A stretch of 64,000 bases of DNA from Dyella sp. RRB7 (GTDB lineage Bacteria > Pseudomonadota > Gammaproteobacteria > Xanthomonadales > Rhodanobacteraceae): assembly GCF_022761115.1 (NCBI RefSeq), contig NZ_JAKWJS010000001.1, positions 1 through 64,000 of the forward strand, given 5' to 3'. Every line of letters begins with the position of its first letter. Position 1 is the first letter of the stretch. The position numbers were made by a program, and so were the translations under genes. The notes beneath the pieces were generated by a model. The model did not search any database, was not told the origin of the DNA, and saw only the letters and a list, made by a program, of their open reading frames with translations. Below, one piece after another: positions 1,126 to 23,809 of this stretch.

Positions 1126-1227
1126 AAGGGGAGGAAGGGCGGCAGCGTTCATGGTTTTGGGGCGTGATTTCGCGTCCGCTGTAAAGTGACCACTTGCTTT
1201 CTGAACAAGGCCGCCCTTCCTCCCCTT
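1126..1227 (+). ncRNA. Retron msr-msd ncRNA (a1/a2 arms)
   Basis: A perfect 18-bp inverted repeat (1126-1143 and 1210-1227) encloses 66 bases. As in known retrons, the first arm (a1) is followed at once by AGC (1144-1146), whose G would be the 2'-5' branch site, and the second arm (a2) lies just before the reverse transcriptase. Inside are a closing stem GTTCA/TGAAC (1147-1151 with 1202-1206), a hairpin around 1156-1175 and AAGT-GACC-ACTT. The a1/a2 pairing and AGC are seen directly; the division between msr and msd is not determined. At 102 bases it is short for a retron RNA, with long arms. It should template the msDNA made by the adjacent enzyme. Confidence 0.75.
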
Positions 1228-2949
1228 ATGAATACAGCGCCCCCAGGGTCACAACAGCTCTTCCGTCTGGCTGACGTCAGGACAATTGACCAGCTAGCAC
1301 GTGCGCTCGGCGTTCCTCTGCAAATTTTTCAGGACGTCATTGCGTGCGAAGATCCCCAACAGATCTATGCCCTACACGCCATACCCAAACGCCATCCTCG
1401 AAACCCGGAGGATTACCGCATCGCGTGGGAGTGCCGGCAAGAACCCGTGGCTAGATCTCATAAGGCTGTGGCGCGAAGGCTAGATGACTTTGCTAGACGC
1501 CGACCGATCAGCTATCCGCATGCGGCTGTTCACGGCTACGTGCGAGGTGGTTCGACAAGAAGCAACGCCCAGCCGCACTGCGGCGCCCGTGTAGCTATTC
1601 GCGCCGACATTGAGAACTTCTTTCCGACCATTACGCTTGAGAGAATTGAAGCAATGCTGCGTACTATCGGTATGCAGGCTGCTCCCGCCAAGGCGCTTGC
1701 GCGCTTCGTGACAATCAAAGGCGCACTCCCACTCGGACTTGCAGAAAGTCCGGTGATCTCAAATCTTGTATGCCTAGGACTGGACAAGGACTTGCAGTCG
1801 TTGGCGGAAGAACGTGGCGTGAGGTATACGCGTTACGCCGATGACATCACTTTCTCTGGTGACGCAAATCTTCCAAGCAGGGAACAGCTTCGCGCCACTC
1901 TCGCAAAGCATGGCTTTCGGCTATCCGAGCGAAAATTCAGGAAATCCAAGCGCGGCCAGGCTCACTTTGTCACTGGACTAAGCATATCGGAGCGTGACTA
2001 TCCGCATGTGCCGCGTAAGCTAAAGCGGATGCTTCGAATGGAACTACATTTCTGCGAGCGATTTGGCATTGGATTTCATGCAGAAAAGATCAACGAAGAT
2101 TTCCGCAAAACTTATCTTCGCCTGGAGGGCATGGTCAAGTACGTAGCTTATATCGAGCGAAGGAAGTCGAAGGAGATAAACGACCAATGGCAACGCGTTC
2201 TTGCAGTCCATCGTGGTCCAACCTCGCACGCCAAGATTGAGTCCAGGAAGCGTGACGATCGGTTCGTTATCGCAGACGAAACTGAATTCACTGTTGATGG
2301 CGTTAAGTACCTAGCATTCTGCTGTGTCCGGATCGCCAACCTGGAAAGAGTTGAGGAGGCAATACAAATCCTTCTGGGTGACTACCTCACCAAGCCAGGA
2401 GCAAAGGGTGATTTAGATGTACTGCAGGCGGTGGGCATCCATTACACGGATGCGCACTTCGATCTTCGCACAAAAACCCTCGATTTGATGACTGATTTCC
2501 TTTCCTGGAGTGCATCAATACATTTCGCGCGCCTGGATAGCTCAAGCAAATACAAAGATACCTACCTCAAGCTCTTCGCCGACTCAATCAGACAGGAGCT
2601 CATCACTTCTGACGAGTGGACCTTACATATCCTTGTCGAGAGAAACGACAAGGTGAAGCTTCCTTCATTAACTCGGGTCATGGAAGCCGAATACCAGCGC
2701 GCGGCGACCGATGGCGCACGCCGTCCAAGTTCATTGCCTTCAGTTCAACGCGTTGAGAAGGCCAGTACATCATCACTTACTTTACCTGACTTCGTTCTCG
2801 CCACCTTTCGTAACTATGCGCAGCTCGTACCGGATGACCGCGTACTTGACTTTGAGCGCATTCGTGATCGTGTTCGGTATATACACGACGCTGACCGAGG
2901 CGTTTACTACACCCGCAAGAAGCCATTTGTCGGTATCGGCAGCGCATGA
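1228..2949 (+). CDS. Retron reverse transcriptase with C-terminal DUF3800-like domain
   Basis: Reverse transcriptase that would extend the branch G of the upstream ncRNA into msDNA. Visible hallmarks are NAxxH (residues 113-117), the palm aspartate in RADIENFF (D127), YADD (203-206) and the retron VTG motif (248-250). From about 345 a second domain starts with an IADE-type motif (D350, E351) and ends with a Leu/Asp/Phe-rich helix, resembling DUF3800 (RNase H-like) proteins; from memory this architecture matches retron type VII. The upstream in-frame GTG at 1186 lies inside the ncRNA, so I use the ATG directly after arm a2 (573 residues). No purine-rich ribosome site precedes it. Expected role: anti-phage abortive defence, with the fused domain as effector. 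Confidence 0.87.
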   Translation: MNTAPPGSQQLFRLADVRTIDQLARALGVPLQIFQDVIACEDPQQIYALHAIPKRHPRNPEDYRIAWECRQEPVARSHKAVARRLDDFARRRPISYPHAAVHGYVRGGSTRSNAQPHCGARVAIRADIENFFPTITLERIEAMLRTIGMQAAPAKALARFVTIKGALPLGLAESPVISNLVCLGLDKDLQSLAEERGVRYTRYADDITFSGDANLPSREQLRATLAKHGFRLSERKFRKSKRGQAHFVTGLSISERDYPHVPRKLKRMLRMELHFCERFGIGFHAEKINEDFRKTYLRLEGMVKYVAYIERRKSKEINDQWQRVLAVHRGPTSHAKIESRKRDDRFVIADETEFTVDGVKYLAFCCVRIANLERVEEAIQILLGDYLTKPGAKGDLDVLQAVGIHYTDAHFDLRTKTLDLMTDFLSWSASIHFARLDSSSKYKDTYLKLFADSIRQELITSDEWTLHILVERNDKVKLPSLTRVMEAEYQRAATDGARRPSSLPSVQRVEKASTSSLTLPDFVLATFRNYAQLVPDDRVLDFERIRDRVRYIHDADRGVYYTRKKPFVGIGSA

Positions 2950-3092: not shown

Positions 3093-3359
3093 ATGCGCAA
3101 GAGCAAGTTCACTGAGAGCCAGATCGTCACGACGTTGAAGCAGGTCGAAGGCGGCCGGCAGGTCAAGGACGTCTGCCGCGAGCTCGGTATTTCCGAAGCG
3201 ACGTACTACGTCTGGAAGTCCAAATACGGCGGCATGGAAGCCTCGGATGTGCAGCGGCTGCGGGATGTCGAGGCGGAGCACGCCAAGCTCAAGCGGATGT
3301 ATGCCGAGCTGGCGATGGAGAACCACGCGCTGAAGGATCTCATTGCAAAAAAGTTGTAG
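3093..3359 (+). CDS. IS3-family transposase OrfA
   Basis: Eighty-eight residues with the usual OrfA layout: an N-terminal helix-turn-helix (about residues 8-45, with an [14 protein letters not shown]-type recognition helix typical of IS407/IS1400 relatives) followed by a leucine-zipper-like coiled coil (about 52-85). It binds the element's terminal repeats and, when fused by frameshifting to OrfB, forms the active transposase. The reading frame ends three codons after the slippery heptamer at 3347-3353. Confidence 0.9.
3347..3353 (+). other. Programmed -1 ribosomal frameshift site
   Basis: AAAAAAG sits just before the OrfA stop. Slipping back one base places the ribosome in the OrfB frame, which is open from here through the upstream extension that reads [10 protein letters not shown] to the OrfB body. 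This is the standard expression mode of IS3-family OrfAB. Confidence 0.75.
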
Positions 3360-3391
3360 ACCCGGCGCACAAGCGCCCGCTTCTGGCTTGG

Positions 3392-4201
3392 TTGATGAGT
3401 CAGCACGGTTGGAGCGAGCGTCGGGCTTGCATGGTGATCGGCTTGTCGCGATCGACGGTGCGCTATCGGCGTCGACCGGATCGCGACGAGGAGGTCATTG
3501 CGCTATTGGCTGAGTTGGCGGAACGCTTTCCCGAACGTGGCTTTGACAAGCTGTTCCAGCTGATTCGACGCCGTGGCCTGGTGTGGAACCACAAGAGGGT
3601 ATGGCGCGTGTATTGCCTGATGCAGCTTAATCGTCGTCGGCGCGGCAAGAAGCGCGTGCCCAACCGGCACCCGCTGCCGTTGGTCGCTGGCGAACAGATC
3701 AACGGCAGTTGGTCGATCGACTTCATGTCGGACGCGCTATGGGATGGCCGGCGTTTCCGCACGTTCAACGTCATAGACGACTTCAGCCGCGAAGCGCTGG
3801 CGATCGAGGTCGACTTGAACCTGCCGGCGACCCGCGTGATTCGCACGTTGGAGCGCACCGCGGCGTGGCGAGGCTATCCGGCCAAGCTACGCCTGGACAA
3901 CGGCCCGGAGTTTGTCGCATTGGCATTGGCCGAATGGGCGGAGAGCAAAGGCATCGCCTTGGACTTCATCGAGGCGGGCCGCCCGATGCAGAACGGCTTC
4001 ATCGAGCGCTTCAACGGCAGCTACCGACGGGGCGTACTCGACATGCATGTGTTCCGCACCCTCAGCGAGGTTCGCGAACACACGGAGCAATGGCTAGCCG
4101 ACTATAACCGCGAGATTCCCCATGACAGCCTCGGCGGGCTGACGCCCGCCGAATTTCGTATCCAGAACGACCCGGCCACCTCCAGTTATTCGTGGCACTG
4201 A
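3392..4201 (+). CDS. IS3-family transposase OrfB (DDE integrase)
   Basis: The catalytic half of the transposase: an N-terminal HTH_21-like region followed by an rve integrase core. The acidic triad is visible as [15 protein letters not shown] and FIERFNGS, the last with the usual D-E spacing motif, then an [14 protein letters not shown]-type C-terminus. It carries out strand cutting and joining at the element ends. It is in the -1 frame relative to OrfA and the frame stays open back to the slippery heptamer, so the working product is probably an OrfAB fusion and the ATG given here is only an internal start. It looks intact. Confidence 0.9.
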
Positions 4202-4246: not shown

Positions 4247-6199
4247 CTAGGCAACATCGAAGATCGAACTGGTGTGAATGGCATCGCCTTCAAAAAGGCC
4301 CAGCCCGCGTATGTGCTGCTCTGCTCGCGCAGGCTCACCTGTGAAGAGAACAACAGCTAGATCTTTCAATGCCCTTGTACAGCTCACATAGAAGAGACGA
4401 CGCGTTCGGTCTACGACGGTCTCTTCGCCTGCTTCTGAGTGCTTTACATCAGTGTCAGAAAGCACTTTGAGACCGAGATACTTTTCGTATGAAAATTGGA
4501 AGTGTGTGCTTTCAGCATCATCAAGGACGACAAGCACCCTGTTGAATTCCGCTCCCTTGATGCCTTGCTGGGTCCCAAATGGCGAGCGCTCCGAAATATA
4601 GGACTGATACGCCAAGAGCTGGCTAGCATCGCATTCCAGGAACGCATCCATTGAGGCCATTTCCTTTTCGGTCTCATCATCTTCCGGCGTATCGTCGATC
4701 GCATCGTCATCGGCAGGCGCGGCTTGTGTAGGCGTGACGTTGGCCGGATCCAAATAGGACACAAGCCTGGGGTCGAGGGTCAATAGTTCCGAGGCGTACA
4801 CCTTCCTCAGAAGATCACCAATCGTTGCTCCAGAATTTCCAACTATGCCTGCCGAAATTGAGGCAACGAGATCTCCAAGATCCTTCAGTCGTCCAGATAC
4901 GTTCACTTGGGAGAGCGAACTCTTGTCGAGAAGCAGTGAGTGCGCCCTGATCAACCGCATCACTTCGAGCTGCCGTCCGCTGGAATGAGCTATGGCGACG
5001 GGTATAAGAAACTTAACGCAGGGCGAGATGGGCCATGCCGTGCCGTCCAGAAAGCCATCCTTAAACGCCGACGGGGCCTTTGAATTGAGAGCGGTATAAA
5101 GATCTCCGAATCCCAACCGCTTTGCAGCCATCTGGTGAACAATGACGAGGAGCTTCACACGTTCGTGATCATGGACTCCGGGACGCCAATGATCGTCCCC
5201 CGTTCGCACCGCCATCCATTCTCGAACCTTAGCAAGGTTGGCATCCCGTGTATCGTCCGCGGGAAAAATGAAAAGGTGCGCGGAGCCTTCAGGCGTCCCA
5301 ACGACACCCTCAGGGCCGAGACGCTGACCAGGGACTTGAACAAGATCATCACCGGCGCGGCGGATAGCATTTGCGAGAGACAAAACCTTCTTTGAGCACC
5401 GGAAGTTTTCTGGTTTTGGTATGTCAGCCCAAGTAGGGTCGCCCTCAACTAATCCAATTCCGGTCGCGTAAATTCGCTGCATCGGATCTCCAAAGAAACC
5501 GAGGCAAAACGAAACATCCACCTCCCGCTCGACGATCTTTAGCGCCGTGACGACTTCGACAGTTGTGTCCTGACTTTCGTCAACGAACACGAAAGGGAAC
5601 TGACATGCGAGAAGAGTTCGAAAGAGGGGCCGTTCGGCAACGAAATGCGGCACGATCTTAAGTATGTCGTCGTGACCCAAGATTCCTTTTGCGTAGTCGC
5701 TGCCCGTCCCGTATCGAAAGCTTTTGACCGAGACGATTCGTTGAGACTGGCGACGCAGTCGCTCCAAGTCCCGAGCATCCTTTTCCTTAGTCCGCTGCTG
5801 GACTCTTGGCCCGTAGGTTGCCTGCTTCTCAGCAAGCGCTTCCATTTTTTCAACGATGCGCCCCTTTACCCATATGCGGATGTCATCTTGGAAGGGTTTG
5901 ATCAGGAGCCACATGAAGCTATGGATCGTCGAGACATGAACTAGCGGGTCGTTGCCTACGTCCTTCCAAATTTCCTCAGCCGCAATCTCCGTATAGGTTA
6001 CGCAGGCGATGCGCTGGCGCATTTTCCTCAAACGATCGCCGTGCAACTTGACGACAGACGACAGTCCTTTGATCAAAGAAGTAGTTTTACCGGAGCCCGC
6101 GCCGGCTTTCATTATGAAGCTGCGGGGTGGAACCTGCCCGAGGTAGCCTCGGAGATCAATGTCAGCCTGAGTGTCCGGCTTGTTTGCACGGCTAATCAT
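4247..6199 (-). CDS. gajB: Gabija-type UvrD-like helicase (GajB-like)
   Basis: Superfamily 1 helicase of 650 residues with Walker A AGAGSGKTT (residues 32-40), a CVTYTEIAAEEI motif Ia (66-77), VSTIHSF, Walker B VDESQDT (206-212) and C-terminal GIKGAEFNRVLVVLDDAE and FYVSCTRA motifs. Together with an OLD-family nuclease this is the two-gene Gabija arrangement, where the helicase partner acts with GajA against phage DNA. I chose ATG 6199: it overlaps the gajA stop by 8 bases and has AGGGAG six bases upstream inside gajA, implying translational coupling; the longer frame to 6265 lacks this. It is longer than well-known GajB proteins (about 490 residues). An acidic stretch (near 4660-4700) lies before the last motifs. 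Confidence 0.85.
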   Translation of the reverse strand: MISRANKPDTQADIDLRGYLGQVPPRSFIMKAGAGSGKTTSLIKGLSSVVKLHGDRLRKMRQRIACVTYTEIAAEEIWKDVGNDPLVHVSTIHSFMWLLIKPFQDDIRIWVKGRIVEKMEALAEKQATYGPRVQQRTKEKDARDLERLRRQSQRIVSVKSFRYGTGSDYAKGILGHDDILKIVPHFVAERPLFRTLLACQFPFVFVDESQDTTVEVVTALKIVEREVDVSFCLGFFGDPMQRIYATGIGLVEGDPTWADIPKPENFRCSKKVLSLANAIRRAGDDLVQVPGQRLGPEGVVGTPEGSAHLFIFPADDTRDANLAKVREWMAVRTGDDHWRPGVHDHERVKLLVIVHQMAAKRLGFGDLYTALNSKAPSAFKDGFLDGTAWPISPCVKFLIPVAIAHSSGRQLEVMRLIRAHSLLLDKSSLSQVNVSGRLKDLGDLVASISAGIVGNSGATIGDLLRKVYASELLTLDPRLVSYLDPANVTPTQAAPADDDAIDDTPEDDETEKEMASMDAFLECDASQLLAYQSYISERSPFGTQQGIKGAEFNRVLVVLDDAESTHFQFSYEKYLGLKVLSDTDVKHSEAGEETVVDRTRRLFYVSCTRALKDLAVVLFTGEPARAEQHIRGLGLFEGDAIHTSSIFDVA

Positions 6200-8507
6200 G
6201 CGCATCTCCCTGTTCAACTTCCTCAACAACAGGGCCAACACCGAGCAGCGCTGGCTCCAGCTCAATCCGTACTTCGTCCTTCAGCCAAACGAGTCCATCA
6301 CGAATGTAAGTCGGGACAAGCCAGTCATCCTCGTCTTCGGTAAGGACAGCAAGCGCGAATCGTGTTTTGTCGAAGCTCTTCCTAGACACCCTTTCATGAA
6401 GACCTTTGGCTAGAGCGTGAGGATCGGCAGCGCCCCCCTTTACAATCAAACCCACCTGTTTCCTGGCCTCCGCTTGAGACCATCCAGGGTTTTCAAGACC
6501 AAAGTCCTCTTCGAGAGTACGTCCACACAGTGTTTCAGTTGCTCCGTTCCACGTAACTGCACGCGCAGTCTGGTAAGCCACTCGGACCTTCGCGCCATCT
6601 TCAAGATCGTGCGTTTTCTCTGCCTCCGAGGCGCCAAGCAGGTGCTCAACTATGAGCATTCCGGGGAGCCATTTGATGAGCGTCTGGTTTGACGTCACAG
6701 CTCCCTGCTCTTGCGGCAAACAAGCTTTGCCGTACTTTGTCTTTCGCACTGGAGCTACAGACCCTTCAACTCCGCCCTCTGCCTCCGGTGTAGCTTGCCC
6801 AGGAGCACCCTCTTCCACATCAGCTGGAACCTCAAACTCGTCGACATCGCCGTCATCATCAACGGCAACACCCTCCGCAGGAACAACTAGAGCGACACTG
6901 TCTATGTCGGTGATAACGAGTGTCGTCAGGCCCAGAAACTCGATGAGAGACTGGAAGCGATGTCCGAAGGCGCCTCCGACTTCCAAAATGCAGAGACAAG
7001 CGGAACGCAAAGTCTTTGCTACCTTCCGAATCATGACTGGCAGGAGCAAGCGCTCAACATTACCCTCGACCAAGATAGCCGCATCTGAGAAGAACAAATC
7101 GCAATGGGTGAGCTTTAGATATCGCTCCAGAAAGTCTCGATCGTCCGGCTTGGCATCGTAAAATGCAGACAGATTGAGCACTTCAGTCAACTGCTCCGTG
7201 CCAATTTTCTTGCGCCTGAAGTAACGTATCGGCCTAAAACCTCGCTCATAAAGAATATGCGGCGAGTGTGTTGTGATAACTATTTGACTACTGAAAATAC
7301 TTCCGTCATCGCCTTCAATTTTCAACAGCTCCAGAATTTGGCGAATAAAAACCTGTTGAAGCTGCGCATGCAGGTGAGCCTCGGGTTCCTCCACAAAAAT
7401 CAGATGCAATGGCGGCCGATTCTCCGTGGACGCCCATCTGGCTTGGGCGTCCAGGATCTCGACAACCATATAGATGAGATTCTTGAATCCGAGCCCGTTG
7501 TAACTATCGGGAAGTGTGGCAGCGTCGTCGCCATCGCCAAGTTGATAGTGAACCCGAGCGTCCTGGCTCATGACGTGGGCAGGGTCCAGCGCCGACATGA
7601 TCTTCAGCCGGGGATTATTGATCCCGGGATAGCCCAGCTTGGCGAGTCGATCAAGAACTGGCTTGAATACCTCATCCAAGTGTAAGTTCAGCGCCTGCTC
7701 TGATTCGAATAGCGCCTTGAGGACCGTGTGATCGTCCTGCCGCTGACTGAGGTTACGCTTGTAGAAGCGACTCAGACGCTTTGATAGGTCCTCCGATCTG
7801 CCTCCGGCCTCTGGATTGGGGTCCGCGAGGTGTCGCTGTGCCCCCAGATTGTCGATCTGAATAAGTGACTTTAGGATCGCGCCGCCGCCGGGTTCTCCAC
7901 CCAATTCATCAGGGACGTAGTCACCGATTTCACGGAAGCCCTGGTCAAACTTCGTGCGATCCAATATGAAGTAGCGCAGCTCGAATGCGCTCTTAAACTC
8001 TCGTTCGAGATAGTCCGTCATGGATCGCGGCCAAGGAACATACTTCGACCCTTGGGGTAGTTCAGCAATCTGCTGAGCGCCGCTAGCCTTGGCCTCCTGG
8101 TAGGTTCGGATAAGCTCGACGAAGTCGCGCGCCGCCAAAGAGACACGGATTCCGACTTTGGTACCCTGCCACGCCGTACTTGGGAGCAAGGGGATCACCA
8201 GATATAGATCGGCTGCCGCAACCTCAAACCAGAGGTCAAGGTCTATGCTCGGAAGCGCAAAGCCCTCTGGAATCGGGTCGTCCAGATTGAAATTTCCGGC
8301 GTCATCGAATGCTTTCCAACATGATGAACTAAAATCGTAGAGGTTAAAGCGATCTTTTCCAGCTGCCATGAACGCATGAATGGCTTGAGTTGCTGACGTT
8401 TTACCGCTGTTGTTGGATCCTACGAAAATCGAAATGTCCCCATCCAGCTCGATATGAGCGTCCTTGAGGCGCCTGAAGTTTCTTAAACGATAAGAGTGAA
8501 TATGCAA
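6192..8507 (-). CDS. gajA: Gabija-type OLD-family ATPase/TOPRIM endonuclease (GajA-like)
   Basis: A 771-residue OLD-family protein. The SMC/RecF-like ATPase shows Walker A GSNNSGKTS (30-38), an NGLGFKNLIY signature (337-346), Walker B FVEEPEAHLH (371-380) and the TTHSPH switch (412-417). The TOPRIM nuclease follows with ILVEGNVE (478-485) and TDID (533-536). An acidic, low-complexity insertion of about 55 residues follows the DxD motif. In Gabija, GajA is the nucleotide-gated DNA-cutting subunit. The start codon is TTG at 8507, with AAGGAGG five bases before it. It overlaps and precedes the helicase gene, forming an operon. It is larger than the founding GajA (about 580 residues), so it may be a divergent class 2 OLD system. 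Confidence 0.88.
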   Translation of the reverse strand: MHIHSYRLRNFRRLKDAHIELDGDISIFVGSNNSGKTSATQAIHAFMAAGKDRFNLYDFSSSCWKAFDDAGNFNLDDPIPEGFALPSIDLDLWFEVAAADLYLVIPLLPSTAWQGTKVGIRVSLAARDFVELIRTYQEAKASGAQQIAELPQGSKYVPWPRSMTDYLEREFKSAFELRYFILDRTKFDQGFREIGDYVPDELGGEPGGGAILKSLIQIDNLGAQRHLADPNPEAGGRSEDLSKRLSRFYKRNLSQRQDDHTVLKALFESEQALNLHLDEVFKPVLDRLAKLGYPGINNPRLKIMSALDPAHVMSQDARVHYQLGDGDDAATLPDSYNGLGFKNLIYMVVEILDAQARWASTENRPPLHLIFVEEPEAHLHAQLQQVFIRQILELLKIEGDDGSIFSSQIVITTHSPHILYERGFRPIRYFRRKKIGTEQLTEVLNLSAFYDAKPDDRDFLERYLKLTHCDLFFSDAAILVEGNVERLLLPVMIRKVAKTLRSACLCILEVGGAFGHRFQSLIEFLGLTTLVITDIDSVALVVPAEGVAVDDDGDVDEFEVPADVEEGAPGQATPEAEGGVEGSVAPVRKTKYGKACLPQEQGAVTSNQTLIKWLPGMLIVEHLLGASEAEKTHDLEDGAKVRVAYQTARAVTWNGATETLCGRTLEEDFGLENPGWSQAEARKQVGLIVKGGAADPHALAKGLHERVSRKSFDKTRFALAVLTEDEDDWLVPTYIRDGLVWLKDEVRIELEPALLGVGPVVEEVEQGDAHD

Positions 8508-9722: not shown

Positions 9723-12173
9723 CTAGAAGCGGTAGGTCAAATCGACACCAACCGTGCGCGGCTGGTTGGTGACGATGCGATTGAATGCCGCGCTTGGCAG
9801 GCACTCTTGAAACAGGCTTTCCAGTTGAGCGCGCTTGTTGAACACGTTATTGGCGAACAAGGCAGCGTCCCAGCCGGCACTGGATTCAATGACCACTCGC
9901 ATATTGGTCAGATCATAGGCCGGCAGGCGGATGAACTTGCCATTCAACGAGTAGCCATAAGGGAAAGCCAGGGAATATCGATGGCTGACATATGCAGTCT
10001 CCAGCAGCGCCTTGAAGGTGTAGACGTTGGTGAGATTCTTGGAATAGTCGAGGATGACGTTTCCAGTCACGGGTGCCACGTCGGATAGCGTATGCGTTGG
10101 CGTGATTTGCCAGTGCACACCCGGATCCACCCATGCGTGGGTGTAGCTGCCGGAGATCGCCGCTTCGAAGCCGCCCCCAAGAATGGCGCGCGTTTCGATT
10201 TCGCCGCCATAGATTTCCGCGCGATTACCGTTGATGTTCAAGGCCCAGTCACCAGGGAGCGCTTCGAGCTGGATATCACGCCAGTTTTCGTAATAGACAC
10301 TCGCATTCACGGTCAGTCGGCGATCCAAGAACCGAGCCTTTTCGCCGATTTCGTAGCTCCACACCGAGTCAGGTTGGTAACTGGATGGCCATTTACCTCC
10401 GGAAAAGTCATACGGGGCGAACACCGCGCTCCAATAGGCCCCAGTGGTCGGATATCGGGCGTTGCCACCGCCCGGCCGTGAGCCCTTTGCCACAGTCCCA
10501 TAGACCATCAGGTCGTTGTTGAACTGATAGGCAAGATTGAATTTTGGGTTGAAGCCCTCACCTGACTGCGTGATAAGGCCAGAGTCGGATGGCGTCGCTG
10601 CCCCCAAGGCCGATCCCCAGCCGCTGATTACCGAAGAGAATCGATAATCGTAGTGGTAGAAGCGCACGCCGACATCGGCTTTGAGTTGACTACTGAAGTC
10701 GTATGTCGCATCGCCGAAGATCGCATACTGGATGAGTCGGGTCGGGGATTGCGCATCGAACCAATGAGGCGTCGTCGCCGGCGCGAAAGTACCGACGTCC
10801 ATGTAGGTCGAAGGATTCTCGGTTGTTCCGTTGAAATTCCAAGTGGCGGAGTAATTGCTAAAGAAGACGCCGCCAACCTCGTTCAATTTGCCGTCGCCCT
10901 TGGATGCGAAGCGAAATTCCTGACTGAATTGCTCAGAGGGATCATCTTCGTGGCCGTAGACCGCACCGCTTCCCGTAGGACCGTAATAGCCAGGATTGGG
11001 GAGGCCATAGTTTGAAGCATAGGTCGCCCCCGTATTCGGGTTATTGAAATCCTCGCTGGCATCTTCGGTTTGTGTCGATCGGCGGTGCCAATACGCGGTG
11101 CTCGAGGTCACGTCGAAGGCGTCGAAGCTGTAATTGACGTTGAGGCTGAAGATATTGATCTTGTCGGTCAGCGGTTCAGCGATATCGAAGGGCTGATAAT
11201 GCGCTTCGGTACCCGGAACGCTGTCATAGGCGCTGATGCCATCCTGCCGGCTGTTCTCGACAAAGAAAGAAGGCGTGATCGACAAACGGTCGGTCGGCTT
11301 CCAAAGCAAGGTGGCCCGAAATCCATCGAGCTGTTGGGCGTTCGAGCCGGGATATTCCTTTTCAATGGGGGCGGCTTCTACATCGCCGCGTATCGCGCCA
11401 TTGGTACTCACTAACGGAAACGGGTTGGCGACGATCCGATCGATCCAGCCACTGGTGTGTGATTCCGTCGCCACCAGACGAAGCGCGAGCTTGTCTTGCA
11501 TCAACGGAATATTGAGCATCACATTGCCATTGTGATTGAAACCTCCCCCGTCGGTTCCCGATAGCGTGCTCTGCGCCGAGCCACCGAACGCCGTCAGATC
11601 GGGTTGATTGGTGATCAATCGCACCGTGCCACCCATCGATCCCGAGCCATATAGTGTGCCTTGTGGTCCACGCAGCACTTCGACGCGACTCAAGTCATAC
11701 AGCGTGGGATCGATCACCACCTTGCCGTTTTGCGCCGCGGCCGGAGCGGTCAACGGAATGTCATCGAGATAAAAGCCGACCGTCGGCGAATTTCCGCCGC
11801 TGGATGTCATCCCGCGTAGTTCGATCTCGGTTTGGCCAGGTCCTTCGCTCTTCAGCGAGACGCCGGGCGTCGACTGCGCCAGAGTACTGAAGTTGGTGAT
11901 GCCGCGGTCCTGCAAGTCGTCGCCACTGACGGCCGTGATGCTGACTGGCGTCGTCTGAAGTGTGGAAGCACGCTTCTGCGAAGTTACCACCATTTCATCG
12001 AGCGTTTTCGCACCATCGGTAGTCGGGACAGTGGCCGACTGAGCATGCGCCTTCAGAGAGAAACCTGCTGCCGTAACGCACAATAAAGTGGCCGCCACTA
12101 TTTTTTTACTCGATCGCGCATTGGGTTTACGCGTGCATCCTCCGGTTCGCACGGCTCGATCGTGTCGCCACAT
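9723..12173 (-). CDS. TonB-dependent outer-membrane receptor
   Basis: Outer-membrane gated channel for energy-dependent import of a large ligand, possibly a ferric chelate. A TonB-box-like LDEMVVTSQKR stretch follows the signal peptide (hydrophobic core ending KAHAQ), then a plug domain with EIELRGM and VEVLRGPQGTLYGSGSMGGTVRLIT, and a 22-strand-type barrel ending in a terminal aromatic residue (LTYRF). The frame stays open to ATG 12326, which has a GGAG six bases upstream, but that start would bury the signal peptide about 90 residues inside; I prefer ATG 12173 (816 residues). It lies downstream of the aminotransferase/MFS pair on the same strand but is separated by about 600 bases. The substrate cannot be told from the sequence. 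Confidence 0.88.
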   Translation of the reverse strand: MWRHDRAVRTGGCTRKPNARSSKKIVAATLLCVTAAGFSLKAHAQSATVPTTDGAKTLDEMVVTSQKRASTLQTTPVSITAVSGDDLQDRGITNFSTLAQSTPGVSLKSEGPGQTEIELRGMTSSGGNSPTVGFYLDDIPLTAPAAAQNGKVVIDPTLYDLSRVEVLRGPQGTLYGSGSMGGTVRLITNQPDLTAFGGSAQSTLSGTDGGGFNHNGNVMLNIPLMQDKLALRLVATESHTSGWIDRIVANPFPLVSTNGAIRGDVEAAPIEKEYPGSNAQQLDGFRATLLWKPTDRLSITPSFFVENSRQDGISAYDSVPGTEAHYQPFDIAEPLTDKINIFSLNVNYSFDAFDVTSSTAYWHRRSTQTEDASEDFNNPNTGATYASNYGLPNPGYYGPTGSGAVYGHEDDPSEQFSQEFRFASKGDGKLNEVGGVFFSNYSATWNFNGTTENPSTYMDVGTFAPATTPHWFDAQSPTRLIQYAIFGDATYDFSSQLKADVGVRFYHYDYRFSSVISGWGSALGAATPSDSGLITQSGEGFNPKFNLAYQFNNDLMVYGTVAKGSRPGGGNARYPTTGAYWSAVFAPYDFSGGKWPSSYQPDSVWSYEIGEKARFLDRRLTVNASVYYENWRDIQLEALPGDWALNINGNRAEIYGGEIETRAILGGGFEAAISGSYTHAWVDPGVHWQITPTHTLSDVAPVTGNVILDYSKNLTNVYTFKALLETAYVSHRYSLAFPYGYSLNGKFIRLPAYDLTNMRVVIESSAGWDAALFANNVFNKRAQLESLFQECLPSAAFNRIVTNQPRTVGVDLTYRF

Positions 12174-12780
12174 TGCCGTATGGGAAGCCAATAGCTGCTT
12201 CCGGCTCCCCAACGCGATTGAAGGCACCAGAACGGATGCCTCACTGCCCTTCAAGACACCACGGAAATCGCTGCACCCATCACTGGTCGATTTCAAATGG
12301 ACTGCTGAATCAACCCGCCCACTCATCCCCTTCTCCCCATGTCAACCTGGATCGAAGTTAAAGTAGCGAGCTGTAAAGTTGCTGCAGCACAGTATCGGTG
12401 CAGCGTAATTACTTCGTAAAACCCGATGCCCCCATTTTTGAGTAGCCCGGTCGTATGCCCCACCTCGGTACACACTTTGCTTGTCAAAGTGCTTCTATCG
12501 CAGAAGAGGCTATTTGGCTAAGTGTTTGATCTAGTTATCGCGGCGCGTTGCCGGAGCAGCTTGCCAGAGGGCGAGTAATAGAGAATGACGTGGCGGCAAG
12601 CCATAGCTAGCTGCGCCGACGTCACTTCCTGCACCTCGGCCCCGTCCGCCCCAGAAGAGGCGACTACCGCTTCCGCCATGATCACCGAGCAGCGGCTCTC
12701 TTGCGGTTTTTTCGCCTTGAAGACTGCGACACCCGCGCACTTCCAGTCGTTGATGGAACGGCAGGAGATATGGGGACGTC
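12174..12780. other. Intergenic stretch before the TonB receptor gene
   Basis: Holds the possible N-terminal extension of the receptor (to 12326), copy 2 of the 80-bp repeat (12458-12538), and an open minus-strand frame (12518-12784) with no family features. Probably contains the receptor promoter. Confidence 0.4.
12458..12538 (+). repeat. Copy 2 of a diverged 80-bp direct repeat
   Basis: Matches 9276-9355. It contains ACACTTTG-CTTGT-CAAAGTG, a near-perfect dyad, and a CTTCT-ATCGC-AGAAG hairpin. It lies upstream of the TonB receptor gene, so the dyad could be an operator, or the two copies could mark the edges of an inserted segment. Confidence 0.5.
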
Positions 12781-14001
12781 TCAACCCCAGCCACTTTTCA
12801 CCGGCAACCTGCGCAGGGATACGGCCGTGCGTTCCAGCGCGTCGCAGAAGGCATCATCATCGTGCAGCGCGCTCAGCGCCAGGCGGACATAGTTCGCGCC
12901 GACCCCGCCAAATAACGCTCCGGGATGTACCAAAATTTTCGCGTCCTGAAGCAGATGGTCCGAGACTTGCCGGGAAGTGCCCAGGCCCGAGATGTCGAGC
13001 CAGATCATGAGTCCCGCCTGTGGCGGCCGAAAACGCACTCCTGCAATCGCACCAAGCATGTCGGCAGCATACTTGCGCCGTCGCTCATACTTCTCGATAT
13101 ACCCGGCGACGAAATCGCGATCGCGCAAGGCAGCGATGGCCGCCTCCTGCGCAGCGGTGTTGGTCGCCCCCAGGATATTGACCGCCGTTGCGTGCATGAC
13201 CTCCATGATCTCGGGCGCGGCCACCGAGTACCCGACACGAAAGCCGCTCATGGCCATTCCCTTGGACATGGAAAAGAGCGTTATGGTGCGCGCACGCATG
13301 CCTGGCAATGTGGCAAACGTCACCAACTCCCGGGCGTCGTAGACGGTGTCCTCGAACGCCTGGTCGACGATGGCCAGCAGGTCGTGCTCCAGTACGAGCG
13401 CGGCCAACCGTTCCAGCGTTTCCCGGCGATGAACCGTGCCCGTCGGATTGTTGGGCTGAGTGAGAATGATCAGCTTCGTCTTGGGCGTGATCCGCGCCCG
13501 CACCGCTGCCACGTCCAGCTCGAAATCACGATGAGGATCGAGCGGTACGGGCACGCTAATGGCGCCCATCAGCTCGGCGTTGCGGAAGTTGCTTGGATAG
13601 CTGGGAACGGGATTGAGCACCTCGTCACCGGGAGACAGGATCACCTGCATGGCCTGCCAGAGGCCGGCATCGGAACCTGGGGTAACGATCACCTCGCGGT
13701 CCGGATCGACTTCAAGGCCGTTGCGAGCGGCGAGTTTGGCGGCAATCTCCCGCCGCAAAACGGGCGAGCCGATGGGCAGGCTGTAGTGCGCGCCGTGCTG
13801 GTCCAATGCCGTCTTGGCAGCCGCAATGACATGCTCAGGCAGACAAGGGTCGGGAAAGAACGGATCCGCCCAACCCAACATCACATACCCTTCGGCCATT
13901 CTGTCCTGGAGCGTCTTGTAGTCAGCGCGCAGTACGGAGGCGAAATGCGGGTTCAACCGCGCGATGGGGGTCTTATCGGTCACGGATGGGCTCCTGCTCA
14001 A
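12781..14001 (-). CDS. PLP-dependent aminotransferase, class I/II
   Basis: Fold-type I aminotransferase of 406 residues, cytoplasmic. Visible features are the N-terminal YSLPIGSPVLRREIA segment, LTQPNNPTGTVH, VDQAFEDTVYD with the PLP-ring aspartate, and SMSKGMAMSGFRVGY with the Schiff-base lysine. The C-terminal VRLALSA arginine binds the substrate carboxylate. It resembles alanine or aspartate-type enzymes, but the amino donor and acceptor are not evident. The start overlaps the preceding MFS gene by 29 bases, so the two are translationally coupled; the transporter probably moves a substrate or product of this enzyme. Confidence 0.9.
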   Translation of the reverse strand: MSRSPSVTDKTPIARLNPHFASVLRADYKTLQDRMAEGYVMLGWADPFFPDPCLPEHVIAAAKTALDQHGAHYSLPIGSPVLRREIAAKLAARNGLEVDPDREVIVTPGSDAGLWQAMQVILSPGDEVLNPVPSYPSNFRNAELMGAISVPVPLDPHRDFELDVAAVRARITPKTKLIILTQPNNPTGTVHRRETLERLAALVLEHDLLAIVDQAFEDTVYDARELVTFATLPGMRARTITLFSMSKGMAMSGFRVGYSVAAPEIMEVMHATAVNILGATNTAAQEAAIAALRDRDFVAGYIEKYERRRKYAADMLGAIAGVRFRPPQAGLMIWLDISGLGTSRQVSDHLLQDAKILVHPGALFGGVGANYVRLALSALHDDDAFCDALERTAVSLRRLPVKSGWG

Positions 14002-22293: not shown

Positions 22294-22370
22294 TCGACAG
22301 CCATCCGGCTTGGCCCTGGAGCAGCCGCCATTGCGCCGCACCAGGCGCACACGCTAACCTTCGCGCCACG

Positions 22371-22424
22371 GAGATGGCATTCCTCCGCGAACCGCCGACA
22401 AGATCGGCTGATGATGCCTACGAG
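22371..22424 (+). promoter_or_regulatory. Fluoride riboswitch (crcB motif)
   Basis: GGAGATGGCATTCCTCC, then GAACCGCC and GGCTGATGATGCCTAC, reproduce the crcB RNA: a 5' hairpin (GGAG/CTCC) with the conserved GATGG, a central hairpin, and the 3' strand of the pseudoknot with TGATG-CCTAC. Its 3' edge overlaps the left arm of the following terminator (22415-22457), so ligand binding should block termination. The regulated gene is the CLC-type transporter at 22505. Confidence 0.9.
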
Positions 22425-22457
22425 CCCCTGGACAGGGATGCCGTAGGCATTTTTTTG
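22415..22457 (+). terminator. Intrinsic terminator of the fluoride riboswitch
   Basis: ATGCCTACG (22415-22423) pairs with CGTAGGCAT (22443-22451) and is followed by seven T residues (22451-22457). An inner GCCCCTG/CAGGG stem lengthens the hairpin. The left arm uses bases of the riboswitch pseudoknot, the classic fluoride-controlled antitermination design. Confidence 0.9.
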
Positions 22458-22504: not shown

Positions 22505-23809
22505 ATGAAACGCGTTTCTCTACCCGAGCAGGCAGCCATGCTGCCCCTGCTTGGACGCTGGCTGATGCTTTCGGCCGTGGTCGGTGGCTTGGCTGGTAGT
22601 GCTTCGGCACTTTTTCTGTGGACGCTGGATTGGGCCACGCAGCAACAGACCAGCCATGCCTACATGCTCGCCTTCCTGCCTGTCGCAGGGCTTGTCATGG
22701 GTTGGGTTTATCACCGCATCGGCAAGGATGTCGAAGGCGGCAATAACCTGCTCATCGACGAAATTCACGACCCCAAGACGATCGTGCCGAAACGGATGGC
22801 GTTTCTCATCTTTGCCGGCACTGTCGTTACTCACCTGTTCGGTGGCTCCGCCGGGCGAGAGGGAACCGCCGTCCAGATGGGGGGTGCGTTGGCGGATCAG
22901 GTCACCCACCGCCTGGGCCTGGGCAAGGACGACCGTCGCATCCTGCTGATGGCAGGTATCAGCGCCGGCTTCGCATCCGTCTTCGGCACGCCGTTGGCTG
23001 GCGCCATCTTCGGCCTGGAGGTGCTGGCCATCGGTAGATTGCGTTACGACGCTCTACTGCCATGCATCCTGTCGGCAATCATGGCCGACGAAGTAACCCG
23101 CCACTGGGGTATTCACCACACGGTCTACGTCATCCCTCATGTGCCACCTCTCGAAGTAGTCGGTCTGCTTTCGACCGCCTTTGCCGGGATCTGCTTCGGC
23201 ATCCTCGGGATGCTGTTCGCCAACACGACCCATGCCTTGGCCGCGGCATTCAAGCGCTGCATCAAGTATCCGCCACTGCGCCTGTTCGTCGGCGGCGCCA
23301 TCGTTTCCATGGCGGCCTATCTGCTCAACAGCCGCCAATACCTGGGGCTGGGCATACCGACCATCCAGGCTGCCTTTGAGCATCCCTTGCCGGCATACGA
23401 CTTCGGCGGAAAGTTTGCATTCACCACCGTGACGCTGGCCTCGGGATTCAAGGGCGGCGAAGTCACACCCCTGTTTTTCATGGGAGCCACATTGGGTAAC
23501 GCTTTGAGCTATGTCCTGCCCCTGCCGATTCCGGTTCTGGCGGGCATGGGGTTTGTCGCTGTATTCGCCGGCGCCGCGAATACGCCATTGGCATCCACGG
23601 TGATGGCGATCGAATTGTTTGGGCCGCAGATCGGGGTGTATGCCGGCATGGCCTGCGCAATCGCGTATCTCTTCTCCGGTCACACGGGCATCTATCGCGC
23701 CCAGCGCGTGGGCCATGCAAAGCATGCCTCCTGGCCAGAAGGCATTCGCCTGGCCGACATCCCCGCTCAAAGGCGCGCTGACCGCGCCTCCGCAACCAGA
23801 CAACCGTGA
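22505..23809 (+). CDS. CLC-type fluoride/proton antiporter
   Basis: A 434-residue CLC-family membrane protein. Residues 114-121 read GSAGREGT; the GREGT form is typical of the fluoride-exporting CLC-F branch rather than of chloride CLCs (GREGP). Other CLC landmarks are GISAGFASVFGTPLAGAIFGLE and the C-terminal GAANTPLASTVMAIELFG. It exports cytoplasmic fluoride against protons, protecting enolase and other targets. Expression is under the fluoride riboswitch and terminator immediately upstream. The ATG at 22505 is 48 bases after the terminator T-run. Confidence 0.9.
   Translation: MKRVSLPEQAAMLPLLGRWLMLSAVVGGLAGSASALFLWTLDWATQQQTSHAYMLAFLPVAGLVMGWVYHRIGKDVEGGNNLLIDEIHDPKTIVPKRMAFLIFAGTVVTHLFGGSAGREGTAVQMGGALADQVTHRLGLGKDDRRILLMAGISAGFASVFGTPLAGAIFGLEVLAIGRLRYDALLPCILSAIMADEVTRHWGIHHTVYVIPHVPPLEVVGLLSTAFAGICFGILGMLFANTTHALAAAFKRCIKYPPLRLFVGGAIVSMAAYLLNSRQYLGLGIPTIQAAFEHPLPAYDFGGKFAFTTVTLASGFKGGEVTPLFFMGATLGNALSYVLPLPIPVLAGMGFVAVFAGAANTPLASTVMAIELFGPQIGVYAGMACAIAYLFSGHTGIYRAQRVGHAKHASWPEGIRLADIPAQRRADRASATRQP

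Follow-up and report, generated by a model that had tools for sequence, protein, structure and literature searches.

A putative type VII-A1 retron with little room for an msd template in Dyella sp. RRB7

Retrons serve as phage defences and as DNA makers in cells. How small the copied part of such an element can become is the question raised by a locus of Dyella sp. RRB7, located 1.1 kb inside the start of contig 1 of a 4.08 Mb genome. The stretch analysed, called the window throughout the paper, comprises the first 64,000 nt of this contig; numbers beginning with L denote collected relatives or compared stretches. On the forward strand a 102-nt RNA element (1126-1227) is found directly 5' of an RT-DUF3800 fusion gene (1228-2949, 573 aa), in which a reverse transcriptase (RT) is joined to a C-terminal domain. 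The reading frame stops at 2949, and frame and motifs are intact. Judged by its sequence, this locus adds a divergent new member to the catalogued retron type VII-A1, and a nearly absent msd would be its unusual feature. A retron DNA hairpin has been proposed as phage sensor (PMC12405507). If the reading is true, a retron type with hardly any hairpin room in its RNA, and with RT and RNase H-like nuclease united in a single protein, would show how far a retron can shrink and would call for another sensing route; it also offers a self-contained cassette of less than 2 kb for tests.

The fused reverse transcriptase and its RNA

The protein was compared to the PADLOC models. The single-gene model RT-DUF3800_VII-A1 matched over nearly its whole length (protein 14-568, model 7-575 of 577; 1.7e-154), followed by RT_VIII (4.7e-66) and RT_VII-A2 (3.4e-56), in agreement with the original prediction, made from the DNA letters alone, that the fusion belongs to type VII. 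A profile of six relatives matched solved retron RTs, with Ec86 as the best (1.9e-35), and the NCBIfam Drt models scored 19-27 bits versus cut-offs of at least 200. The motifs predicted for a retron-type RT were found as NAQPH (1564), YADD (1834) and VTG (1969) in the RT part (1228-2220, end approximate). Six full or nearly full members were collected, the window included, and NAxxH, YADD (YSDD in L025) and VTG are retained in 6/6 proteins. Identity to the window protein amounts to 81% for a copy from a Rhodanobacter metagenome-assembled genome (MAG; L001), 58% for one from the same genus (L005) and 35% each for copies from an Aminobacter plasmid (L024), a Rhizobium plasmid (L025) and a viral contig (L023). 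The two plasmid copies reached the highest scores with the VII-A1 model and carry the same RNA core. The window element thus resembles type VII-A1 in protein and RNA core, but differs from the plasmid copies in sequence and groups with L001 and L005.

The predicted arms of the RNA were borne out as a perfect 18-bp inverted repeat, a1 at 1126-1143 and a2 at 1210-1227. It is the sole perfect repeat of 18 bp with a loop of up to 100 nt across the window; when the window was shuffled 20 times with dinucleotides preserved, a single 14-bp repeat arose overall, 18 bp not being counted in the shuffles. For the whole RNA a fold z of -6.45 was obtained (equally stable shuffles 0/200). The 65-nt core alone was ordinary (z = -0.88; 34/200), so the fold signal comes mostly from the arms. 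The AGC expected after the first arm is present at 1144-1146, with G1145 as candidate branch guanosine. The msr-like core (1153-1191) is composed of stem-loop 1 (1160-1177) and a weak stem-loop 2 (1178-1187), closed by pairing of GGUU (1153-1156) with GACC (1188-1191). It overlaps the conserved ACCACTTGCTT stretch (1189-1199), which has one match in the window at 0.01 expected.

The same RNA was found directly 5' of the gene in 5/5 loci with upstream DNA, namely the window and four relatives from Gamma- and Alphaproteobacteria, and the claim of an arm-flanked retron RNA beside the RT gene gained covarying arms in its favour. The shared order is arm, GC, 5-8 nt, GG, the conserved stem-loop GGCGYGA/UCGCGYY, a variable part, ACCACUYGCU, a variable part and the second arm. 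The GC after a1 is present in all five loci; the preceding A is not conserved. In the RNAalifold consensus, derived from the same five-sequence alignment, 89.0% of the cells were paired versus 80.9% in shuffles, and the covariation score was 0.300 versus 0.180 (standard deviation 0.029; 0/500 as high), with slid versions reaching at most 0.132. Using arm ends picked by hand, the number of paired positions among the innermost 10 was 10, 10, 9, 10 and 8 for the cognate arms of the five loci and 3-10 for the 20 non-cognate combinations. Non-cognate pairing at 8 or more positions was confined to arms exchanged between the window and L001 (9 and 10) and to the L025 a2 with the a1 of the window and of L001 (8 and 9).

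A covariance model from the five loci found the element in 7/42 sources, which are the five loci with two of these represented in duplicate. There was no plus-strand match in the other 35 sources, L023 among them, and the only further matches were three weak antisense ones to the element itself. Across 49 genomes two matches were obtained, each beside this RT. Such matches are expected by construction, and the information lies in the absence of others. An RNA pattern scan of viral contigs gave no match. At gathering scores the RNA had no match among the Rfam families. A permissive Rfam scan listed only microRNA-hairpin families on the element, far below gathering scores, and no DUF3800 RNA family; the hits just upstream, also far below these scores, were to two models of microRNAs and to one plasmid antisense model.

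A promoter-like pair TCCACA-18 nt-TATGAT (1095-1124, + strand, TATGAT at 1119-1124; 9/12 matches, shuffle mean 0.1) predicts an RNA start near 1131. Transcription may therefore miss about 5 of the 18 bases of the arm, and the working a1 may have 13 (1131-1143) rather than 18 nt. At the same threshold the promoter scan found none in the four relatives; TATGAT, TATAAG and TATGGT are visible by eye 5' of a1 in L001, L024 and L025, which is weak evidence. The ATG at 1228, the base right after a2, was taken as the probable start codon, because conserved sequence opens shortly 3' of it and because in L001 the longer frame from GTG 1186 is interrupted before the ATG. This start codon adjoins a2 without spacing and without a purine-rich ribosome site (1210-1230), and GGGGAGGA sits in a1; RT translation may therefore be governed by the RNA fold.

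Room for an msd template

Between the end of stem-loop 2 (1187) and the start of a2 (1210) lie 22 nt (1188-1209), into which a conventional msd template would have to fit. Counted from ACC to a2, the lengths in the five loci are 21, 20, 22, 19 and 22 nt. Two described retrons served for comparison. In Eco2 one RNA stem-loop after the branch G ends at nt 42, copying stops at nt 52 and the msd of 67 nt forms one long hairpin (PMC12405507). In Eco8 a pair of RNA stem-loops extends to nt 61 and copying ends at nt 73, with a complementary DNA (cDNA) of 75 nt that forms two hairpins (PMC12887533). Our arithmetic from these figures, which takes the template as beginning next to a2, gives a stem-loop-to-a2 room of about 76 nt in Eco2 and about 86 nt in Eco8. 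With the stop spacing of Eco2 or Eco8 the copied part in the window would be 13 or 11 nt. Like the predicted msr of the window retron, that of Eco8 has two RNA stem-loops 3' of its branch G, followed by a single-stranded stretch (PMC12887533). Eco8 differs by its separate OLD effector and by its msd of about 75 nt, in which two DNA stem-loops are formed.

Among the local folds, stem-loop 2 dominates in 3/5 loci (probability about 0.55 in the window, 0.45 in L001 and 1.0 in L024). It is displaced in L005 by a 7-bp hairpin around CCAC, which the window forms at a probability of about 0.17, and in L025 by a 4-bp hairpin around ACCACUUGC. The largest hairpin possible in the template stretch has 7 bp, and the competing hairpin, if a real one, would be a very small msd hairpin. 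If stem-loop 2 is not formed, the room grows to 32 nt (1178-1209), which is still less than half of that in Eco2. The original prediction of an unusually small multicopy single-stranded DNA (msDNA) was strengthened, because only 22-32 nt lie between the msr-like stem-loops and a2. Any msDNA of the window retron is thus predicted to be very small, and copying of so short a stretch is our inference. One recent paper detects retron hosts by single-stranded DNA running at 40-180 nt (PMC12548924), a range in which an msDNA of up to 32 nt would be missed.

The C-terminal domain and the proposed mechanism

The C-terminal domain (2233-2946) had been predicted to resemble DUF3800. In part this holds: the PADLOC DUF3800_VII model matched the domain at 2.9e-7, the C-terminal part alone matched the VII-A1 model at 4.6e-42, and the predicted fold is RNase H-like. 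The direct link to Pfam DUF3800 (PF12686) did not materialize. For the five C-terminal domains compared no match to it was listed at E of 10 or below, in a search whose HMMER filters drop most weak matches, and hhalign against small, shallow PF12686 protein sets gave probabilities of 1.2% and 0.4%. Pfam and NCBIfam searches provided no family name for the domain, and a sequence search of the PDB with its profile found nothing credible (best E 0.18). The acidic residues D350/E351 (2275-2280), E471 (2638) and D521 (2788) are invariant, H405 (2440) too. RNase HII was the best Foldseek match of the C-terminal model. The first-strand DE pair coincides with the DE of RNase HII if the alignment is ungapped from the first residue (model residues 15-16, offset 8). 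For DUF3800 an RNase H fold with catalytic rearrangement has been reported (PMC10910872); the window domain is like these DUF3800/RNase HII fold nucleases in fold and first-strand DE, but lacks a direct match to PF12686 or the small PF12686 sets.

If there is an effector, which gene could encode it? In the Rhodanobacter MAG (stretch L126) the element lies between a DUF2069 gene and a gene for an AidB-type acyl-CoA dehydrogenase. Homology to relatives stops upstream by L126:11308 (L129, L130), near 11265 in most, and restarts downstream at L126:13198 (L139, L141). Nothing but the RNA (11358-11463, counting the flanks of the model) and the gene (11461-13182) is present in the extra DNA (L126:11309-13197, about 1.9 kb). 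The insert displaced most of another gene, thioesterase-like by eye, of which the start is left. In 4/19 compared relatives (L131, L133, L136, L144) just 36-189 bp lie between the same flanks. As the insert consists of RNA and gene only, the retron unit looks self-contained in this one bounded insert, and the fused domain must be the effector there, if any effector exists. The predicted lack of a separate effector gene thus held in the one insert with visible bounds. Some other relatives hold different genes between these flanks, and the site may therefore be a variable one.

Retron-Eco2 (Ec67; RT-Toprim) resembles the predicted arrangement in uniting RT and nuclease effector in one protein and in having an a1/a2 non-coding RNA (ncRNA) with a branch G (PMC12405507). 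It differs by its Toprim domain, where an RNase H fold is predicted here, and by its 67-nt msd with a long DNA hairpin versus 22-32 nt at most. On its own the Toprim domain of Eco2 acts as a toxic RNase; toxicity is absent from the full fusion, and a phage nuclease serves as the trigger (PMC12405507). By analogy with Eco2, the nearest working model, the RNA- and cDNA-bound RT would restrain the RNase H-fold domain in the window protein.

We consider it somewhat probable that the locus is a complete VII-A1 retron of the abortive-infection type, in which RT, RNA and a very short cDNA together keep the fused RNase H-fold nuclease switched off. Anatomy, conservation, the single-gene insert and the fold prediction come from the present analysis. 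Priming, cDNA, inhibition and abortive infection are modelled on other retrons, Eco2 above all. The promoter just 5' of a1 would yield a short RNA with paired arms and an exposed branch guanosine. The RT domain would bind the stem-loop core, prime from the 2'-OH of G1145 and copy only the short stretch adjoining a2, resulting in a branched RNA with a cDNA of about 11-32 nt, of which a large part stays paired within the RT. Such a ribonucleoprotein would keep the fused nuclease inactive until a phage factor attacks or strips RNA, cDNA or hybrid. The freed nuclease would then cut nucleic acid and halt the cell before phage release. A bolder form of this model, which we regard as rather doubtful, is a retron almost without msd. 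Its cDNA stub of about 11-32 nt, largely RNA-paired inside the RT and devoid of a long sensor hairpin, would form a hybrid that mimics an RNase H substrate and locks the fused nuclease, and disturbance of this hybrid would be the trigger.

We are aware of the fact that several observations weigh against the abortive-infection retron. The branch context varies (AGC, AGC, CGC, GGC, UGC), and the candidate branch G of L025 may be paired within the arms. L005 and L025 fold differently around the conserved stretch, and the core structure rests on five sequences. As the consensus structure was derived from, and tested on, these five, the test favours the structure, and further pair types numbered 14 with no excess over shuffles (14.0). 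Foldseek template modelling (TM) scores were low, 0.34-0.45 by query (five hits below 0.001). The full-length structure prediction was poor, with a predicted local distance difference test (pLDDT) score of 64.7 and a predicted TM-score (pTM) of 0.43. The effector role is deduced from fusion, acidic residues and predicted fold. Finally, the neighbours of L001 are housekeeping genes by Pfam, and defence linkage is therefore not general.

The strongest rivals are a domain acting as RNase H for template removal and an RNA from which no cDNA is made. In the former case, which we regard as unlikely, the domain would be a dedicated RNase H trimming template RNA during cDNA synthesis in place of the host enzyme, with defence or another function coming from elsewhere. 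RNase HII as best structural match and the position of the DE pair, under the ungapped alignment, agree with such a role. The bounded insert without another gene leaves no alternative effector, PADLOC keeps a separate DUF3800_VII model, and type VII-A2 encodes DUF3800 apart from the RT; these points weigh against it. RNase H activity is indeed used in retron maturation (PMC12887533), but Eco2, another single-protein retron, bears a toxic C-terminal domain (PMC12405507).

Similarly improbable is the absence of any msDNA, with the RNA as structural cofactor or antitoxin-like RNA on the RT domain and the RT fold as RNA-sensing scaffold. An msd is usually variable, and the would-be copied stretch of this RNA opens with conserved sequence in 5/5 loci; template room is scant and a long msd hairpin is missing. 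DUF3800 has also been found together with putative ncRNAs (PMC10910872). The preservation of YADD/YSDD, NAxxH and VTG in all six proteins argues the other way, as does the GC after a1 in 5/5 loci, which is like the primed UAGC of Eco1 (PMC11754653). The conserved short template-like stretch and a gene for a defence-associated reverse transcriptase (DRT) of type DRT8 beside the Aminobacter copy would suit repeated copying or extension of the template, known from some DRT systems, with a DNA product longer than its template. The RT scores fall in the retron types and far below the Drt cut-offs, which renders this very unlikely. A chance hairpin 5' of a decayed RT gene might be imagined at a contig edge with an insertion sequence (IS) copy near by. 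Given the intact frame and motifs and an RNA conserved with compensating arm changes in distant relatives, it is hardly credible.

Neighbourhoods and distribution

Defence genes are neighbours in three loci (window, L005, L024). In the window a Gabija pair (4247-8507, - strand) is composed of GajA (6192-8507; PADLOC 5.3e-288) and GajB (4247-6265; 1.3e-251). It is separated from the retron by an element at 3093-4201 that we take to be of IS3 type, and a low GC island lies at the contig start (GC 0.53 for the retron, 0.53 for the Gabija pair, 0.64 for the chromosome stretch). A PDC-S60 candidate is located near the L005 copy. Directly upstream of the Aminobacter VII-A1 retron the DRT8 RT gene (L024:2058-3647; PADLOC 1.8e-136) places two defence RTs side by side. 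A gene just upstream of the window retron (107-1030, + strand) encodes 307 aa, among which a hydrophobic stretch is visible by eye. The protein had no Pfam, NCBIfam or PADLOC match, and none of L126, L125 and L024 has this gene as its upstream neighbour; as a retron partner it was rejected.

Type VII-A1 is rare in the sequences searched. One locus search found 3 loci, one of them full-length, and among 61 genomes 10 had an RT-level match, two of which were full-length (the own genome and G002). Among all loci collected, including the best 80 of 244 RT relatives, the C-terminal domain is confined to the six known copies. For plasmids 181 records matched, 2 with at least 80% coverage; for phages 40 matched, 0 with 80% coverage, and the C-terminal domain had no match in phages. 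The PADLOC model hit 1/369, 2/20, 3/233 and 1/398 genomes in four sets, with the window's own genome among the hits of each, and 1/397 (a partial match in a 377-aa frame) and 0/327 in two further sets. Among the papers searched none joins a retron with DUF3800, and of those that mention retron and type VII none, judged by title, is on this type. The viral contigs yielded one copy, 5'-truncated (L023; truncated end within L023:1-150), in which the RNA and some 72 residues of the N-terminus are missing; 5' of the copy the start of an IS3-type OrfA can be read by eye on the opposite strand.

Elsewhere in the window a fluoride riboswitch (22361-22427, + strand; Rfam RF01734, 54.9 bits) was found upstream of a CLC-type channel gene (22505-23809).
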